Source: Teichococcus aestuarii
GTDB lineage: Bacteria > Pseudomonadota > Alphaproteobacteria > Acetobacterales > Acetobacteraceae
Direction of reading: 5' to 3'
DNA length: 64,000 nt
NCBI RefSeq assembly: GCF_003116135.1
Contig: NZ_PDOA01000008.1
Span: 1-64,000 of the forward strand
Positions within the stretch are counted from its first letter, which is position 1. Every line of letters starts with the position of its first letter. Of the stretch, positions 1,793 through 8,768 are shown in pieces. The notes below the pieces were generated by a model. The model made no database searches and was not told where the DNA came from. It worked only from the letters and a program-made list of their open reading frames with translations. Both the position numbers and the translations under genes were made by a program.

Positions 1793-1858
1793 GGCGCCTT
1801 CCTCCCGTTCTTGGTTGTTACGGGGAAAAGCCTAGGCGCCGGGGAAGGCGCGGTGCAA

Positions 1859-3283
1859 TCAGCCCTCCCGCGCCATGCCCCCGCCGGGTGGCCCGAGGCA
1901 CAGCGTGGCATCGGCCAGCGCCCGCGCCGCCGCCGCGTCGTGGGTGATGAGCAGCACGCCCAGCCCCTCCGCGTCGGCCAGGCCGCGCAGCAGGTGCAGG
2001 GCGGCGCGCCGCGTCGGCGGGTCGAGGCGGGAGCAGGGCTCGTCGGCCACCAGCAGGGCCGGGCGCAGCGCCAGCAGCCGCGCCAGGGCAACACGCTGCG
2101 CCTCGCCGCCGCTCACCGCCTCGGGCGGGCGGCGCAGCAGGGCGGGGGAGATGCCCAGCCGCTCCAGCAGGGGCGGCAGGGCGGGGGCGGTGCCGGGGCG
2201 CAGCCGCGCCAAGTCGGCCAGGCTCTCGCCCAGCGGGCGCTGGCGGGGAAACACCCGCGTCGGATCCTGGTGCAGCTTCTGGAAGCGGGTGCGCAGGCTC
2301 TGCCGCAGCCGCGTGTCCAGCGGGCGGCCCAGCCAGCAGAGCCGGCCGGCCGCAGGCGGCGCCAGGGCCAGCAGCGTGTCGCCCAGCGTCGTCTTGCCGA
2401 TGCCGCTGGGGCCGAGCAGCGCCGTCATCCGGCCGGCATGCAGGGAGAAGTCGAGCGGTCCGGCCAGGGCGCGGCCGCCACGGCCGATCGCCAGCGCCTC
2501 GGCCCGCGCCACCTCCTCGCCGCCCGCCGCCGGGGCACGGGCCGGCCAGAGGCGCGGATCGGCCGCCACGCAGGCACGGGCGAAGGCCGAGCGCGGCGCC
2601 GCCAGCACGCTCTCGGCGGGGCCGCATTCGGCGATCCGCCCTTCCTCCAGCACCGCGATTTGCCCCCCCAGCGCCTGCGGCACCGCCAGGTCGTGCGTGA
2701 TCAGCAGCAGGGCGCGCCCCTCCGCGCGCAGCGTGGCGAACAGCGCCAGCAATTCGGCCCGCCGTGCCGGGTCCAGCCCCTTGGTCGGCTCGTCGGCCAG
2801 GAGCAGCGGCGCCTGGCCGCGCAGCACCAGCGCCGCCAGCAGCCGCTGCGCCATGCCGCCCGAAAGCTGGAAGGGCAGCCGGGCCGCCGCCCTGGAATCC
2901 AGCCCCAGCCGGGCCAGCCAGCCCAGGGCGCCGGCGCGGTCCAGCCAGGGCGGCGTCAGCCGCAGCTGCGAGAGCGCGGGCAGCAGCGGCGCCAGCGCCT
3001 GGGCCGGCTCCTGCGGCAGCAGGCAGGTGCGGCTGTGCCAGAGGGCGCGCAGCCCGCGCTGGTCGGCGGCGCGCAGCCGGTGCGGACCGAGACCGATCCA
3101 GCCCGTGGCCTCCATGCAGCCGGGCAGCAGCCCGGCCACGGCGGCGGCGATCAGGCTCTTGCCGCCGCCCGAGGCACCGATGAGGCAGAGGCTCTCCCCC
3201 TCCGCCACCTCCAGGCAGACATCCCGCAGCATGGCCCGCCCGTCATGCCGGATGCCGAGCCCCTCGATGCGCAGCGCCTTCAT
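1859..3283 (-). CDS. fused double-ATPase subunit of a Dpp/Nik-type ABC importer
   Basis: This 474-residue protein contains two ABC domains in one chain, equivalent to DppD plus DppF or NikD plus NikE. Domain 1 (about 1-235) has Walker A GASGGGKS, signature LSGGMAQR and Walker B LLLADEP. Domain 2 (about 245-474) has Walker A GPSGIGKT, signature VSGGEAQR and Walker B LLVADEP, each followed by an ITHD switch histidine. I chose the ATG at 3283 because it overlaps the preceding permease stop as ATGA; a longer open frame upstream is only the shadow of that permease. It energises uptake by the two permeases at 3280-5072. Both domains keep all catalytic motifs. Confidence 0.9.
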   Translation of the reverse strand: MKALRIEGLGIRHDGRAMLRDVCLEVAEGESLCLIGASGGGKSLIAAAVAGLLPGCMEATGWIGLGPHRLRAADQRGLRALWHSRTCLLPQEPAQALAPLLPALSQLRLTPPWLDRAGALGWLARLGLDSRAAARLPFQLSGGMAQRLLAALVLRGQAPLLLADEPTKGLDPARRAELLALFATLRAEGRALLLITHDLAVPQALGGQIAVLEEGRIAECGPAESVLAAPRSAFARACVAADPRLWPARAPAAGGEEVARAEALAIGRGGRALAGPLDFSLHAGRMTALLGPSGIGKTTLGDTLLALAPPAAGRLCWLGRPLDTRLRQSLRTRFQKLHQDPTRVFPRQRPLGESLADLARLRPGTAPALPPLLERLGISPALLRRPPEAVSGGEAQRVALARLLALRPALLVADEPCSRLDPPTRRAALHLLRGLADAEGLGVLLITHDAAAARALADATLCLGPPGGGMAREG

Positions 3284-4116
3284 GTCTCCTCCAGCGGCAG
3301 GGCGGGCGCGGGGGCGCGCGCCAGCCCCTCGCCGATCAGCGTGGCCGACCAGGTGGCGAGGAAGATGGCGGCGGCGGGGGCGGCCAGCATGTGCGGCGCC
3401 TCCTGCAGGTAGGGCAGCGCCTCGGCGATCATCGCCCCCCATTCCGGCCGCGGCGGCAGCAGGCCGATGCCGAGGAAGCCCAGCGCCGAGACGGTGAGCA
3501 GGTTGCCCCCCAGATGCAGCGCCGCCAGCGAGGCGACGGGCCGCGCGATGGCCGGCCAGGCGTGGCGCCGCAGCCGGTAGGCGCGGCCGAAGCCCAGCAG
3601 CAGGCTGGCCTCCGCCTCCGGCGCCGCCAGGGCGCCGCGCGCCAGCGGCTCGGCAAGCTGCGCGTAGGGTGGCCAGCGCGTCAGCACGAGGCCGAGCAGC
3701 ACGGTGCCGACGCCGCCGCCCAGCAATTCGGTGGCCACCAGCACCAGCAGCAAGGCGGGGCAGGCATAGACCGTCTCGGTCAGGCCGCGCAGCAGGCGGC
3801 GCGGCATCCCTCCCAGGCTGGCGGTGAGCAGCCCAACCACCGTGCCCAACAGCGCCGTGGCGAGGCTCGCCGCCAGCGCCACGCCGAGCGAGAGCCGCGC
3901 CGCCGCGACGGTGCGCGCGAGCACGCTGCGGCCGAGCGGGTCGGTGCCCAGCAGCCACTCGCCGCCGGGCGGCAGGCCGGCAGCCATGAGGTCCGGCTCC
4001 AGCGGGTCGGCCGTGAGCAGGGCGGGGCCGGCCAGGGCGGTGGCCGCCAGCAGCGCCGCCAGCCCGGCGCCGAACCAGGGAAAGCGGCGATGCGCCGCGC
4101 CATGACGATGGCTCAT
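3280..4116 (-). CDS. Dpp/NikC-type ABC importer permease
   Basis: The 278-residue inner-membrane permease belongs to the DppC/OppC/NikC family. An N-terminal membrane segment is followed by the family sequence LLGTDPLGRSVLARTV (about 55-70), then four to five hydrophobic segments and the EAA-type loop around ALGFLGIGLLPPRPEWG (about 215-232). The ATG at 4116 overlaps the stop of the previous permease as ATGA, and the gene ends in an ATGA overlap with the ATPase, so the whole cassette is translationally coupled. It forms the translocation pore with the permease at 4113-5072. Confidence 0.88.
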   Translation of the reverse strand: MSHRHGAAHRRFPWFGAGLAALLAATALAGPALLTADPLEPDLMAAGLPPGGEWLLGTDPLGRSVLARTVAAARLSLGVALAASLATALLGTVVGLLTASLGGMPRRLLRGLTETVYACPALLLVLVATELLGGGVGTVLLGLVLTRWPPYAQLAEPLARGALAAPEAEASLLLGFGRAYRLRRHAWPAIARPVASLAALHLGGNLLTVSALGFLGIGLLPPRPEWGAMIAEALPYLQEAPHMLAAPAAAIFLATWSATLIGEGLARAPAPALPLEET

Positions 4117-5072
4117 GCCGTCGCACCCCCCGCGCGCAGGCGCGGGTCCATGGCGCGCAATGACAGCTCCGCCAGCAGCGTGGCGGCGCCGAGCAGCAGC
4201 GCGAAAGCCAGCCCCAGCGCCGCGACCACCGGAAGGTCGCGCGCCATCAGCGAGCGGATGAGGAGCTGGCCGATGCCGTCGAGGTTGAACAGCATCTCGA
4301 TGGCGATGAAGCCTTCCGTCACCTGCATGGCCAGCACGGGGAGATAGGCCACCACCGGCACCAGCGCCGGCCGCGCCACCACCCGCAACCCGATGCGCCA
4401 GGGCGCCACGCCGCGCATCCGGGCGAATTGCGTGGCGTAGGCGCCATGCGCCTCCGCCATGCCGTGCCGCGCCACCCGCGCCAACCCGGGGGCGAGCGCC
4501 GCCGCCAGCGTCACCACCGGCAGCACGAGGTGCCAGGGCGTGGCGTCGCCGGCCACGGGCAGCCAGCGCAGCCGCACCGAGAGCAGCACCACCAGCACGC
4601 CGCCCAGCGCGAAGGAGGGCGCCGAGGCCAGCAGCGCGGCGAGCGCCGCCACCCCCCGGTCCAGCCAGCCGCCCGGCCGCCGCCCCGCCGCCAGGCCGGC
4701 GGGCAGCGCCAGCAGCAGCGCCGCCAGCAGCCCCAGCGCGCCGACGCGCAGCGTCAGCCCCAGCCGCGGCGCCACCTCGGCCAGCACCGGCTGCCCGGTG
4801 ACGAGCGAGCGGCCGAAGCGGCCACGCGCCAGATCGGCCAGCCAGGCGCCGTATTGCAGCAGCACCGGCCGGTCCAGCCCTGCCTCCGCGCGCAGCGCCT
4901 CGACCATCGCGGCGCTCACCCGGTCCTCGCCGAAGCGTGCGGCGGCGACGCGCAGGGCGAGGTCGCCCGGCAGCGCCTGGAGCGCGGCGAAGCAGAGCGT
5001 CGCCACCACCAGCGCCACCAGCCCCGCCTGCGCCAGCCGGGCGGCCAGCAGGCGGGCGAGGCTCAGGCCCAC
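4113..5072 (-). CDS. Dpp/NikB-type ABC importer permease
   Basis: The 319-residue permease belongs to the DppB/OppB/NikB family. The N-terminal membrane segment leads into LQALPGDLALRVAAARFG, then RFGRSLVTGQPV (about 92-103), typical of this family, and the C-terminal EAA loop EGFIAIEMLFNLDGIGQL (about 265-282). The start is taken as GTG at 5072, which overlaps the last codons of the binding-protein gene; the only in-frame ATG options lie far inside the protein or in the neighbour's shadow. It pairs with the permease at 3280-4116. The GTG start inside the upstream stop region implies coupled translation. Confidence 0.85.
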   Translation of the reverse strand: MGLSLARLLAARLAQAGLVALVVATLCFAALQALPGDLALRVAAARFGEDRVSAAMVEALRAEAGLDRPVLLQYGAWLADLARGRFGRSLVTGQPVLAEVAPRLGLTLRVGALGLLAALLLALPAGLAAGRRPGGWLDRGVAALAALLASAPSFALGGVLVVLLSVRLRWLPVAGDATPWHLVLPVVTLAAALAPGLARVARHGMAEAHGAYATQFARMRGVAPWRIGLRVVARPALVPVVAYLPVLAMQVTEGFIAIEMLFNLDGIGQLLIRSLMARDLPVVAALGLAFALLLGAATLLAELSLRAMDPRLRAGGATA

Positions 5073-6640
5073 CGCAGCCCGGCCGCGCCGTAATCCTGCT
5101 CGAACGGGTCCAGCACCACCGAGGGCAGCGCCACGCGCGGCGAGACCGCCACATTGTGCTCGAACCAGGAGACGGGGATCACCGGCAGCTCGGTTTGCAG
5201 GATGGCGGCGATGCGCCGGCGCAGCGGCGCGCGCTCCGCCTCCGCGAAGCTGCCGAGATAGGCGCGGGTGAGGTCCAGCATCTCGGCGTTGTCGAAGCCG
5301 GGGGAGGACCAGAGCTGCCGGTCGCCGGTGAAGTCGGGGATGATGGTGCCGATCGGGTCCGGCACGTTGACGTAGGTGCGGGCCAGCAGGCTGCACTCCA
5401 TCGAGCCGTCGCGGATGGCGCCGGGCAGCGCGCCGGAGGGGCCGGGCCGCACCGTGATCTCGGCCCCCACGGTGCGCCACTGGGCCTGGATGGCCTGCGC
5501 CATCACCGGGATCTCCGGGCGGTTGGAGGGCACCATCATCGCGGCCGTCAGGCGCTGGCCGTCCCGGGCGCGGATGCCGTCGGCGCCCGGAGCCCAGCCG
5601 GCCTCGTCCAGCAGGCGGCGCGCCGCGGCCGGGTCCCGCCGCAGCGGCGGCAGATCCGGGTCGTGCCAGCCGGAGAGCACGGGGGGCAGGAGCTGGGTGG
5701 CGTGGCTTGCCGGATGGCGCAGGATGGCGGCGGCCAGCCCCTCGCGGTCGATGGCCAGGGAGAGGGCGCGGCGCACCCGGACATCGGCGAATTGCGGCCG
5801 GCGCAGATTCATGACGATCATGCGCGGGCGCGGGATGGTGGCGCTGAGGATGTGCGCCCGGCCCGAGGCCTGGATGCGCTCCGCCGCCTGCGGCAGCAGG
5901 GTGAAGGCGATATCCGCCTCGCCGGCCTCGGCCAGCCGGGCGCGGGTCTCGCCCAGCGGCACGGCGCTGTAGGCCAGGCGCCGCACCGCTGGCGGCGCGC
6001 CCCAGTATTCCGGGAAGGCCTCGGCCTCGATGCCGCGGATGCCGTCCAGCGCCGTCACGCGGAAGGGGCCGGTGGCCACCGGGCGCTGCGGCCGGCCCTC
6101 CGCGTCATAGGCGGATGGAGCGAGGATGATACCGGCATAGTCGGTCAGGCAGCCGGGCAGGGGGGCGAAGGGCGTCTCGGTGCGGAACACCACCTCCCGC
6201 TCGCCCTCGGCCCAGAGCGCCGCCAGCGGAATGGCGGACAGGCTCTCGGCCAGCGGCCGCACCCGCTCCAGCGTGCGCACCACGAGCGGCGCGGTGACGG
6301 GCGTGCCGTCATGGAAGCGCGCCTCGCGCAGGCGGAAGCGCCAGGTCAGCCGGTCCGGCTCCACCGACCAGCTCTCGGCCAGCAGGCCGCGCAGCGTGCC
6401 GTCAGGGCGCACGCCCACCAGTGTCTCGGCGATGCCGAGGCGGCGCAGCACATAGCCGGTCTCCACCGGGTCGGGGCTGCTGAACTCCCAGGGGGAGACC
6501 ATGCGCAGCACCGCCGCCTCGGCGCGCAGCGGGCGGGCGAGCAGCAGGGCGGGGGCGGCCAGCACCAGGCGGCGCGGCAGGGCGGGGGCGGGGCGGGCAG
6601 GCGCCAGGATCGGGGCGCGAAGGCCCGGCAGGTCGGTCAT
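5063..6640 (-). CDS. family 5 (DppA/NikA/CntA-like) extracytoplasmic substrate-binding protein
   Basis: The roughly 525-residue protein belongs to the SBP_bac_5 family. An N-terminal signal region (LPRRLVLAAPALLLARPLRAEA, about 20-42, with a twin-arginine-like RR) is followed by family motifs: a W-S-V-E-P-D-R-L-T-W-R-F segment near 95, F-H-D-G-T-P-V-T-A near 115, and D-V-R-V-R-R-A-L-S-L-A-I-D near 285. ATG codons stand at 6643 and 6640; the AGGAG site spaces better with the second. An open frame extends far upstream only because it runs through the riboswitch. The ligand is not evident. Control by a cobalamin riboswitch points to cobalt, a cobalt chelate or a corrinoid-linked need rather than plain peptides. 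Confidence 0.88.
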   Translation of the reverse strand: MTDLPGLRAPILAPARPAPALPRRLVLAAPALLLARPLRAEAAVLRMVSPWEFSSPDPVETGYVLRRLGIAETLVGVRPDGTLRGLLAESWSVEPDRLTWRFRLREARFHDGTPVTAPLVVRTLERVRPLAESLSAIPLAALWAEGEREVVFRTETPFAPLPGCLTDYAGIILAPSAYDAEGRPQRPVATGPFRVTALDGIRGIEAEAFPEYWGAPPAVRRLAYSAVPLGETRARLAEAGEADIAFTLLPQAAERIQASGRAHILSATIPRPRMIVMNLRRPQFADVRVRRALSLAIDREGLAAAILRHPASHATQLLPPVLSGWHDPDLPPLRRDPAAARRLLDEAGWAPGADGIRARDGQRLTAAMMVPSNRPEIPVMAQAIQAQWRTVGAEITVRPGPSGALPGAIRDGSMECSLLARTYVNVPDPIGTIIPDFTGDRQLWSSPGFDNAEMLDLTRAYLGSFAEAERAPLRRRIAAILQTELPVIPVSWFEHNVAVSPRVALPSVVLDPFEQDYGAAGLRWA

Positions 6641-6691
6641 CATCGTCTCCTGCACCGGGGAATCCCGCCCGGCGATGTGGGGAACAGGCCT

Positions 6692-6896
6692 CGGCGGCAG
6701 GTCTCCTGGCTCGCGGCCCGGCGGGGTGGCCTGCGCCCCCCGCCCTCCGGTGCCCCGCCTTCCCGGGCCTGCTGGCCCAGTGGCGCGCCCCCCTGGCGGA
6801 GGGCTGGCGGGCGCCGGAATGCCGCCTACAGTTGCGGGATCAGCCACCGACTTGCCCCCGGATCGGCTCCGGTGCGGGCGCACGGTGTTCCCTTTT
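6692..6896 (-). promoter_or_regulatory. cobalamin (B12) riboswitch
   Basis: Read on the minus strand the segment carries the hallmark blocks of the cobalamin element in order: AAGGGAACACCGTG at the 5' side (about 6896-6882), GCTGATCCCGCAACTGTAGG (6844-6825), a GCCACTGG block, GGAAGGC, and the near-invariant B12 box GAGCCAGGAGACCTGCCG (6711-6694). The leader then continues to the binding-protein start, with a CCGGG / CCCGG stem (6655-6672) just before the AGGAG ribosome site that could form part of an expression platform. B12 binding in this family normally turns the downstream genes off, so the importer should be made when cobalamin is scarce. Confidence 0.93.
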
Positions 6897-7298
6897 CACC
6901 CGCTCGCGCGGGACCGTCGAAGCCTCAGCATAGGCAGGCGCGGCGGCGGCGGCAATTCGCCCGCCTGCATCCCGCAGCACCGAGGCCGCCGCCGCCTCGT
7001 GCGGCAGCGGCACGCCATGCGCCCGCCGGTAGGCGGCGGCGAACTCGGCCCGCTCCATCGCCTCGCACAGGTCGAGGTGCCGCAGCAGCCGCCGCTCCGC
7101 CCGCGCCGAGGAGCCGAGCTGGCGGCGGAACATGCGCCACAGCAGATGCGCGTTCACCGCCCAGGGGTCGTAGGCGTGTTCCTGCATCCGGCGGCGCACG
7201 GCGGGGGGCAGGGCGTCGAAGCAGGCCCACTCATCGCCGCGCCAGCGGCGCCAGCGGCCTTCGCGGGCGGTGATGTCGTTGGGGGAGGGAGATGCCAT
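6840..7298 (-). CDS. uncharacterised 152-residue protein, Zur-like box at its start
   Basis: I cannot assign a function. The N-terminal 105 residues look like a compact soluble domain rich in W, R and A (RWRRWRGDEWACFDALP, then HLLWRMFRRQLG and RHLDLCEAMERAEF), with scattered H and C residues but no clear metal motif; it may belong to a small alphaproteobacterial domain of unknown function. The last 19 codons lie inside the cobalamin riboswitch and read as a basic, Pro-rich tail, so the C-terminus may be dispensable. The ATG at 7298 begins 9 bases after a palindromic operator. It is the first gene after a terminator and precedes the riboswitch and importer on the same strand. Confidence 0.7.
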   Translation of the reverse strand: MASPSPNDITAREGRWRRWRGDEWACFDALPPAVRRRMQEHAYDPWAVNAHLLWRMFRRQLGSSARAERRLLRHLDLCEAMERAEFAAAYRRAHGVPLPHEAAAASVLRDAGGRIAAAAAPAYAEASTVPRERVKREHRAPAPEPIRGQVGG

Positions 7299-7307
7299 AT
7301 CCGGCGT

Positions 7308-7328
7308 TTATGTTATGGTATAACATAA
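7308..7328. promoter_or_regulatory. Zur-like palindromic operator
   Basis: A 9-bp perfect inverted repeat, TTATGTTAT-GGT-ATAACATAA. Its core ATGTTAT-N3-ATAACAT has the same half-sites and spacing as the enterobacterial Zur consensus. It lies 9 bases upstream of the 152-residue gene and overlaps where its promoter should be (a TTGCGT -35-like box is at about 7329-7334 on the minus strand). A zinc-responsive repressor binding here is an inference; no zur gene is in the window. Confidence 0.6.
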
Positions 7329-7350
7329 CGCAAGGGGGCAGGTGCGAGGC

Positions 7351-7372
7351 GGGGAGGGGCGCTGCCCTCCCC
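7351..7372 (-). terminator. stem-loop after the large catabolic operon
   Basis: Arms GGGGAGGG / CCCTCCCC with a six-base loop, 8 bases past the stop of the flavoprotein gene on the minus strand. It separates the GntR-headed operon from the Zur-like operator and the importer genes. Confidence 0.6.
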
Positions 7373-7379
7373 GTTCCCG

Positions 7380-8768
7380 TCAGGCCCGGGCGGCGGCCTC
7401 GCCGGCGGCGTGGCCGAGCGCCACGGCGGTCAGCAGGCCATTGCCGGAGAGATAGCCCTCGGCCCGGCTGCCGGAGACGCCGCAGGCGGCGCCGCCCGCC
7501 GCGTAGAGGTTGGGAAAGGGCGTGCCATCGGGGCGTAGCACGCGGGCGGCCTCGTCCACCACCAGCCCGCCCTGGGTGTGGAACAGCGCGCCCGTGACCC
7601 GCACGGCGCGGTAGGGCGGCACCAGCGGCGGCTGATGGGCGAAGCTGCGGCCGAAGCCATCCGTGGCGCCGGCCTGCTTGAGCGCCTCCACCTCTTCCAG
7701 CGTGGCGCGGAGCGCCGCCTCGGGCAGCTTCGTGGCGGCGGCGAGGGCGGCCACGTCCGGCGCGCTCAGCACCACGCCGGCCGCCTCGGCCTGGCGGAAA
7801 TCCTCGAACTGGCGGGCAATGCCGGCGATGCGCTCGTCGAACACGCTCCAGGCGATGCCCTCCGGCTGACGCAGCACCACCGCCGCCTGCTCGGAATAGC
7901 CATGGCTCTCGTCCGAGAAGCGGCGGCCCTCCAGGTTCACCTGGAAGCCGCCCTGGGTGATGGTGGCCCAGGAGATCAGGATGCCGATGGGATGGGCGAC
8001 CGAGCCATGCCCCTGGTGGCCGGAGAGGTGCCGCGTGGCCGCCCCCAGCGCCTCACCCCAGAGCAGCGCCTCGCCCTGGTTGCCGGCATGACCGAAATAC
8101 AGCGCGCCGGCCAGTTGCGGCACATGCTCGGCCACCAGCGCCGGATTGCCGCCATAGCCGTTGCAGGCCAGGATCAGCGCGCCGCAGCCGAGGCGCTCCT
8201 CGCCGCCATCCGGCCGGCGGAAGGCGATGCCGTGGATGCGGCCATCCGCATCGGCGTAGAGATCCGTCACCTGCGCCTCGCACAGGATCTCGGTGCCAGC
8301 GGCCTCGGCCGCCTCGCGCAGCCGGTTGACCAGTTCCTCGCCGGAGCGGCTGGGCAGGCCGTGCATGCGGCAGGCGGAATGGCCGGGGTAGCGGAAATCG
8401 GTGATGACCGAGAAATCCAGCCCGTGCCGGTCCGCCAGCCATTCCAACACCGGGCCGATGCGCGTGGCAATGGCGCGCACCATCGCCGCATCCGGCTCGC
8501 CGCCGGCCTTGGCGAGGATGTCGGCGGCGAAGCGCTCCGGGCTGTCCGCCTCGCCCGCCGCCTGCTGCCAGCGCGTGCCGGGGGCGGGGATCAGCCCGGC
8601 GGAGAGGGCGGTGGAGCCGCGCGGCACCGGGTCGCGCTCCAGCACCAGCACCTCCTGCCCCGCCGCGCGCAGCGCCAGGGCGGCGGTGAGGCCGGCGGCG
8701 CCGGCGCCCACCACCACCACCGGCATCCGCATCTCGAAGCTGGCGTCCTCGGCCGGAAGCACCCTCAT
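7380..8768 (-). CDS. FAD-dependent oxidoreductase, fumarate reductase/succinate dehydrogenase flavoprotein family
   Basis: The 462-residue flavoprotein has an N-terminal dinucleotide motif GAGAAGLTAALALRAAG (about 17-33) ending in LVLERD, and the family's STALSAGLIPAPGT segment (about 50-63). The C-terminal FAD segment contains NLYAAGGAACGVSGSRAEGYLSGNG-type sequence split around 420-445. Relatives oxidise or reduce C=C bonds next to carboxyl groups (fumarate reductase, tricarballylate and 3-ketosteroid dehydrogenases). It is the last gene of the GntR-headed operon, with the ATG at 8768 overlapping the upstream stop as ATGA. The substrate is unknown; a soluble desaturation or reduction step on a dicarboxylate would fit the neighbours. 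Confidence 0.85.
   Translation of the reverse strand: MRVLPAEDASFEMRMPVVVVGAGAAGLTAALALRAAGQEVLVLERDPVPRGSTALSAGLIPAPGTRWQQAAGEADSPERFAADILAKAGGEPDAAMVRAIATRIGPVLEWLADRHGLDFSVITDFRYPGHSACRMHGLPSRSGEELVNRLREAAEAAGTEILCEAQVTDLYADADGRIHGIAFRRPDGGEERLGCGALILACNGYGGNPALVAEHVPQLAGALYFGHAGNQGEALLWGEALGAATRHLSGHQGHGSVAHPIGILISWATITQGGFQVNLEGRRFSDESHGYSEQAAVVLRQPEGIAWSVFDERIAGIARQFEDFRQAEAAGVVLSAPDVAALAAATKLPEAALRATLEEVEALKQAGATDGFGRSFAHQPPLVPPYRAVRVTGALFHTQGGLVVDEAARVLRPDGTPFPNLYAAGGAACGVSGSRAEGYLSGNGLLTAVALGHAAGEAAARA

Follow-up and report, generated by a model that had tools for sequence, protein, structure and literature searches.

Can one leader place a bacterial importer under the control of both zinc and vitamin B12? 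The question is raised by a 64,000-nucleotide stretch of Teichococcus aestuarii (contig NZ_PDOA01000008.1, positions 1 to 64,000; the window), in which a palindrome resembling a Zur box stands before a gene of the DUF6525 family, and that gene leads into a cobalamin (B12) riboswitch and an ABC importer operon (Table 1). An earlier sequence-only reading had proposed that zinc repression at initiation and B12 control within the leader together make a two-metal decision circuit. Our analysis favors, at somewhat better than even confidence, a looser arrangement: Zur would act on a promoter upstream of DUF6525 (P1), the riboswitch would act on transcripts from both P1 and a second, riboswitch-proximal promoter (P2), and the importer would thereby answer to zinc and to B12.

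Table 1. Features of the window bearing on control of the importer (strand "-", minus strand; ".", unstranded).
Feature	Position	Strand	Basis or remark
Fused double ABC ATPase (NikD/NikE-like)	1857..3286	-	two ABC_tran stretches
ABC permease	3280..4116	-	Pfam PF00528
ABC permease	4113..5072	-	Pfam PF00528
SBP_bac_5 solute-binding protein (SBP), Nik/Cnt-like	5063..6643	-	Pfam; NikA/CntA models match below cut-off
Cobalamin (B12) riboswitch aptamer	6679..6933	-	Rfam RF00174, 70.5 bits vs gathering 31.5, model 1-189
Predicted riboswitch-proximal promoter P2: TTGCCG (6955-6950), 17-nt spacer, TATGCT (6932-6927)	6927..6955	-	TTG[AC] conservation; lies within DUF6525 ORF
DUF6525 gene, 152 codons	6840..7298	-	Pfam PF20135, 8e-13
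Predicted promoter P1: TTGCGT (7333-7328), 17-nt spacer, TAAACG (7310-7305)	7305..7333	-	predicted from sequence
Putative Zur-type operator, TTATGTTAT-GGT-ATAACATAA	7308..7328	.	core 7310-7326, GTTA-N5-TAAC

The palindrome at 7308-7328 reads TTATGTTATGGTATAACATAA, two 9-nt arms in perfect inverted repeat around a 3-nt centre (9-3-9). The sequence-only reading had described it as ATGTTAT-GGT-ATAACAT at the promoter of a 152-residue gene; the palindrome is present, and 9 nt separate it from the minus-strand ORF start at 7298. That reading also gave it the half-sites and spacing of the enterobacterial Zur box, a fuller form than the core treated below. A chance origin is ruled out by the genome-wide counts given below and by two expectations: dinucleotide shuffles give 0.03 matches per window to the 17-bp core ATGTTAT-N3-ATAACAT at three or fewer mismatches (the palindrome has none), and a first-order Markov model, with the window at 73% GC, gives about 1.4e-5 exact copies per 5.2-Mb genome. 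The Zur core published as GTTA-5N-TAAC (in the excerpted text of PMC4176598) fits the palindrome as well. The box would occupy the spacer of P1 and the edge of its predicted -10, and the predicted start site would lie near the DUF6525 ATG; a strict sigma-70 scan of 6500-7500 called no promoter, neither P1 nor P2. The candidate role of the palindrome as Zur operator of the DUF6525 promoter is well supported by the comparisons that follow.

The sequence-only reading had suggested scanning the genome for the same motif before zinc genes and zur, and such copies are found. The 5.2-Mb genome holds two exact copies and four distinct places at two or fewer mismatches; at three or fewer there are 21 forward matches (overlapping ones counted) against 5 for the reversed control pattern. 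The second exact copy precedes AztA/AztB-type genes (NCBIfam scores 205 of 220 and 234 of 280), a one-mismatch copy precedes an AztD-like gene (241 of 400), and a three-mismatch copy lies just upstream of a Zur-like gene (118.7 of 167 on the NCBIfam Zur model) beside a gene read by eye as hisI; all these zinc-related names come from matches below the NCBIfam cut-offs. A two-mismatch copy precedes a second SBP5-permease-permease-ATPase operon, whose SBP is 44% identical to that of the window. Together with the boxes before DUF6525 and importer relatives described below, these sites bear out the predicted Zur-type identity of the box. In a wider search with the pattern GTTATNNNATAACAT the neighbouring genes were mixed, which counts against the favored model: only ten of 30 loci, one of them this genome's own, carried a clear homologue of the zinc-linked queries.

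The palindrome might instead bind another regulator, such as the second of the two Fur-family proteins in the genome (at C18), and its signal might then not be zinc. The existence of that protein and the sub-cut-off score of the Zur candidate would allow for this. Against this, genes of zinc-transporter, zinc-chaperone and Zur-like type (all named below NCBIfam cut-offs) have near copies of the box in front of them, and the sites match the printed Zur core (the excerpted text of PMC4176598 and a table in PMC5387054), so that we regard a different regulator as very improbable. As a separate observation, the first ORF of the aztAB-type operon (C19:294927; L018:10928-11834), 43 codons long, has its ATG in contact with the Zur box, which suggests leaderless starts at Zur promoters.

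DUF6525 was found in 26 of 145 genomes, a set that includes this one; the 26 leave out a further match, the 27th (G082), which covers riboswitch-derived residues only. A box at three or fewer mismatches lies within 250 nt upstream of the gene in 16 of the 26 rows, or in 15 of the 25 relatives when the window is set aside, against 0.04 expected from dinucleotide shuffles. At five of the ten DUF6525 loci that have no box, the fetched stretch contains a COG0523 gene, and part of the COG0523 family has been linked to zinc (excerpted text of PMC2770081). DUF6525 looks like a common member of the putative Zur regulon in this family, and a domain named in no open-licence paper searched gains its first lead, a zinc response.

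The end of the window protein is shared less widely. Homology in the best pair is conserved to residue 117 and ends right at the P2 -35; looser tblastn matches extend to residue 147 at most, mostly through a stop. Stops fall at about residues 108-134 in 22 of the 25 relatives, at 138 in one and at 149 in another, and the remaining relative has no stop in the fetched stretch. The last ~35 residues in the window are encoded by riboswitch promoter and aptamer DNA, and the predicted structure is helical, with pLDDT below 50 at residues 110-135. No cobalamin riboswitch was found at any of the 25 other DUF6525 loci. The gene order of the window, unseen at these loci, could be of accidental origin.

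At the junction itself, the last 94 nt of the DUF6525 ORF (6933-6840) fall inside the aptamer match, and a terminator search of 6500-7500 found none, by a rule that needs a run of T and that a GC-rich or Rho-dependent terminator would escape. Given this overlap and the negative terminator search, read-through from P1 into the riboswitch is likely; the proposal that the DUF6525 transcript would run into the riboswitch is what the anatomy leads us to expect. Examined for an expression platform, the leader fold of 6620-6960 is no stronger than that of shuffles (z -0.01), and the junction had no second match among plasmids.

The riboswitch also appears to have a promoter of its own. Of 32 cobalamin riboswitches, those of the window, Roseomonas sp. 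GC11 and Acidisphaera among them, 30 carry a TTG[AC] element between -28 and -18 relative to the start of the aptamer; stretches of the same sequences taken further upstream predict 2.1 (loci L172 and L183, of 30, left out). When all 92 riboswitches of the family that exceed the Rfam cut-off are taken, 70 have it at this position; that set leaves out two family hits below the cut-off and hits outside the family. The P2-like site is shared by the window, GC11 (G006) and Acidisphaera sp. L21 (G022). With such a site upstream of the aptamer, the importer should be transcribable without P1 and therefore need not depend on the Zur promoter, and Zur may only add transcript to the output of P2. The proposed two-metal decision circuit thus survives in part: box and riboswitch are stacked and read-through is likely, but the predicted riboswitch promoter, the chief finding against that circuit, argues against a strict zinc-then-B12 decision. 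The two inputs would then probably add up at initiation, and the riboswitch would act on the leader that both transcripts share.

The P2-like site, at its standard position, is also what would be expected if the locus held two touching but separate units, in which Zur and P1 control DUF6525 only, the importer is expressed from P2 only, and the order arose by rearrangement with negligible or silent read-through. The end of best-pair DUF6525 homology right at the P2 -35 and the lack of a riboswitch beside the gene at the 25 other loci agree with such a separation, and the overlong frames near 149 residues or without a stop in two relatives, which make the long frame of the window not unique, count against joint control. 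Set against separate units are the entry of the DUF6525 frame into the aptamer with no terminator found, as well as the two comparisons taken up next, with the importer family and with GC11. We hold separation to be a serious possibility, of less than even probability.

All four importer proteins score below the NCBIfam Nik cut-offs (NikA, for example, 173.3 of 600), and a NikABCDE nickel importer was rejected as its identity; the solved chains nearest to the window SBP include nickel and metallophore binders. The cargo is likely a metal or a metal chelate, and cobalt is plausible because of the B12 riboswitch. CbtA and CbiM are absent from this genome (G000) and from GC11; this says little about replacement of a cobalt importer, since among 20 genomes tested CbtA occurs in just 5 and CbiM in just 3, and a weak partial CbtA hit was obtained in Acidisphaera L21. 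A third SBP paralogue in this genome, 48% identical (G000:C42:3641-5155; L109 / L158), has no recognisable Zur box or riboswitch in 4.5 kb.

Alphaproteobacterial relatives of the importer often have the box and no riboswitch. Of 40 rows of SBP homologues, 21 carry it at three or fewer mismatches within 600 nt upstream (19 of 38 once two duplicates are removed), against 0.09 expected by chance; one of the 40 had just 33 nt of upstream sequence, and the count excludes L115, L116 and L121 (duplicates of L093, L094 and L095), L130 and L133 (contig ends) and the distant L135, L136 and L139-L150. A box is found farther upstream in three additional rows, in one of which it stands immediately before a COG0523 gene, and the six beta-proteobacterial rows have none. 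In Rhodoferax, Hydrogenophaga and Comamonadaceae (L126-L129), the DNA upstream of the importer SBP appears, by eye, to encode a ZnuA-like binding protein, with no box of this motif. Three annotated plasmid records were examined from 135: zinc ABC genes lie close by in two but not in the third, the plasmid of Skermanella mucosa carries a DUF1826 gene and a GTP-binding protein gene with the zinc ABC genes, and the best boxes in the three have 3, 3 and 1 mismatches.

An SBP homologue at E 1e-135 or better occurs in 5 of 397 family genomes, including the window's, GC11 and Acidisphaera L21, and among the SBP loci scanned with Rfam only this trio has a riboswitch. In a tree of 36 SBP proteins (L118 and L119, duplicates, L123, with two stops, and L125, a fragment, excluded), the trio is monophyletic (100/100) within a ten-row group (100/100); the tree is rooted at its midpoint and leaves the branch order inside that group unresolved. 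Five of the seven other members of the group carry a box directly upstream. Since riboswitch-free relatives are so often Zur-boxed, the riboswitch looks like an added layer, and zinc control is likely the older one, with the B12 riboswitch placed onto an importer already under putative Zur control. The frequency of the box in the family also speaks against an importer separate from Zur.

The best evidence for a real stack comes from outside the window, from Roseomonas sp. GC11. In that genome the orthologous importer (SBP 71% identical to the window SBP) has a perfect box, ATGTTATATCATAACAT, separated from the aptamer below it by 45 nt that contain no gene. The box ends 22 nt above the P2 -35, and no TTG adjoins it on either side, a placement that weighs against the favored model. 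Its divergent neighbour is a methyltransferase gene, and P. aeruginosa has a Zur-linked methyltransferase gene, PA1921 (excerpted text of PMC4542158). The box as an operator of the methyltransferase is weakened as an explanation: the eight other loci found for this methyltransferase, three of them 76-86% and five 52-54% identical, lack one, the best matches within 350 nt having 6-8 mismatches. A box kept above the same riboswitch without DUF6525 runs counter to separate units; Acidisphaera sp. L21, which has the riboswitch and importer but no Zur box at the locus, is in keeping with them. The simplest history, drawn from these three genomes, would have Zur control first and a single gain of the riboswitch, after which the box was kept (GC11), came to stand behind DUF6525 (window) or was lost (Acidisphaera).

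Boxes near B12 riboswitches recur elsewhere in the family. Five of the 92 family riboswitches have one at three or fewer mismatches within 200 nt above the aptamer, against 0.08 expected from mononucleotide shuffles; the window, with its box 375 nt from the aptamer, is not among them. Across 83 riboswitch loci (153 kb), four loci have such boxes, all confined to the 200-nt stretches above aptamers that make up about 11% of the sequence; this enrichment may be somewhat inflated as intergenic DNA is richer in A+T than genes. The genes below the five boxed riboswitches encode the SBP5 importer (G006), CbtBA (G009), TonB receptors (G024, G015) and a FecCD permease that lies 1.3 kb downstream (G013). 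The G009 box (C23:9000-17000; L271) sits between a divergent DUF1826-COG0523 operon and the riboswitch with cbtB-cbtA; that it also faces this operon counts against the favored model. The G024 box, ATGTTATAACATATCGT (C2:4620-4817, minus strand; L186 / L269), has 2 mismatches, precedes a TonB-dependent receptor and shares its last T with the TTGAC -35 of the riboswitch promoter; the upstream gene is on the same strand, and no divergent gene was seen that would explain the box. Cobalamin riboswitches also stand before MetE in G082:C29 (L157; by Pfam) and G005:C88 (L274; by eye), the latter with a weak 4-mismatch box above it.

Such placements raise the possibility that Zur blocks the riboswitch promoter directly from a box near P2, as in GC11 and G024, and that in the window this has been replaced by read-through from DUF6525; the two could coexist with the model we favor. 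The one-base overlap of the G024 box with the -35, and the GC11 box 22 nt above it, are suggestive, but simple blocking would call for a shorter distance than that in GC11, the site in G024 carries 2 mismatches, and the window box, 375 nt from the aptamer, is out of reach of such a mechanism. We consider direct blocking unlikely.

Returning to joint control through P1 and P2, the following sequence of events may be envisaged. When zinc is sufficient, Zur would cover P1; in zinc shortage P1 would fire and give the DUF6525 message, and the anatomy of the locus suggests that these transcripts would continue through the B12 riboswitch into the importer operon. P2, judged by its position just upstream of the riboswitch and its family-wide conservation, would give a zinc-independent message, and the B12 riboswitch would act on both. 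Low B12 would then release the importer from P2, and low zinc would allow stronger expression from P1 plus P2. A bolder extension is that ribosomes on the Zur-controlled DUF6525 message traverse the initial 94 nt of the aptamer before halting next to its core, with the effect that zinc shortage both raises the importer leader and loosens B12 control, and that stacks of Zur box and riboswitch, recurring in the family, join cobalt or B12 supply to zinc status. This we think quite improbable.

A working join would tie the supply of cobalt or B12 to zinc scarcity at a single gene set and, if true, would fit the idea of cobalt standing in for zinc. The trio of genomes would then show one importer gaining B12 control on top of zinc control and, in one case, in its place. 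The components are each already known: Zur boxes, B12 riboswitches, Zur control of a cluster C importer and Zur-controlled cobalt import. No report of a Zur operator and a B12 riboswitch joined in one leader was met in the open-licence literature searched.

The nearest precedent is in Paracoccus denitrificans, where zinc depletion induces the cluster C importer pden1341-1344 and Zur binds the importer promoter in EMSA (excerpted text of PMC5387054, here and below). Both importers belong to cluster C (SBP family 5), and the row of SBP5, permease and ATPase genes is found in the window as well, the likeness being one of family and gene order. The P. denitrificans locus includes a COG0523 gene, pden1338, and COG0523 and zinc ABC genes lie near some relatives of the window importer. 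There, however, the Zur motif lies 26-40 bp upstream, whereas in the window no box stands directly upstream of the SBP gene and DUF6525 and the riboswitch intervene; the excerpted text of PMC5387054 does not mention a B12 riboswitch.

Nik-type importers under a predicted B12 riboswitch have been described in Clostridium tetani and Desulfitobacterium hafniense, and the riboswitch-controlled NikABCDE systems were set apart from Ni-specific NikA proteins (excerpted text of PMC2667541). The term Zur is absent from PMC2667541, and the window proteins miss the Nik cut-offs. In P. aeruginosa, zinc shortage switches on a cobalt-importing system, PA2911-PA2914, through pyochelin-cobalt import (PMC11481552), and Zur-controlled cobalt import eases zinc starvation (PMC11481552, PMC13083405; excerpted texts), which offers a reason for zinc and B12 signals to converge. 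That system consists of a TonB receptor and a siderophore/B12-type ABC importer, and the term riboswitch is absent from PMC11481552. Finally, in Mycobacterium tuberculosis a translated frame in or before the B12-riboswitch leaders of metE and ppe2 alters downstream expression (abstract of PMC11260477). Those frames are short uORFs and zinc is absent from the abstract, whereas here it is a Zur-boxed gene of a conserved family that enters the aptamer.
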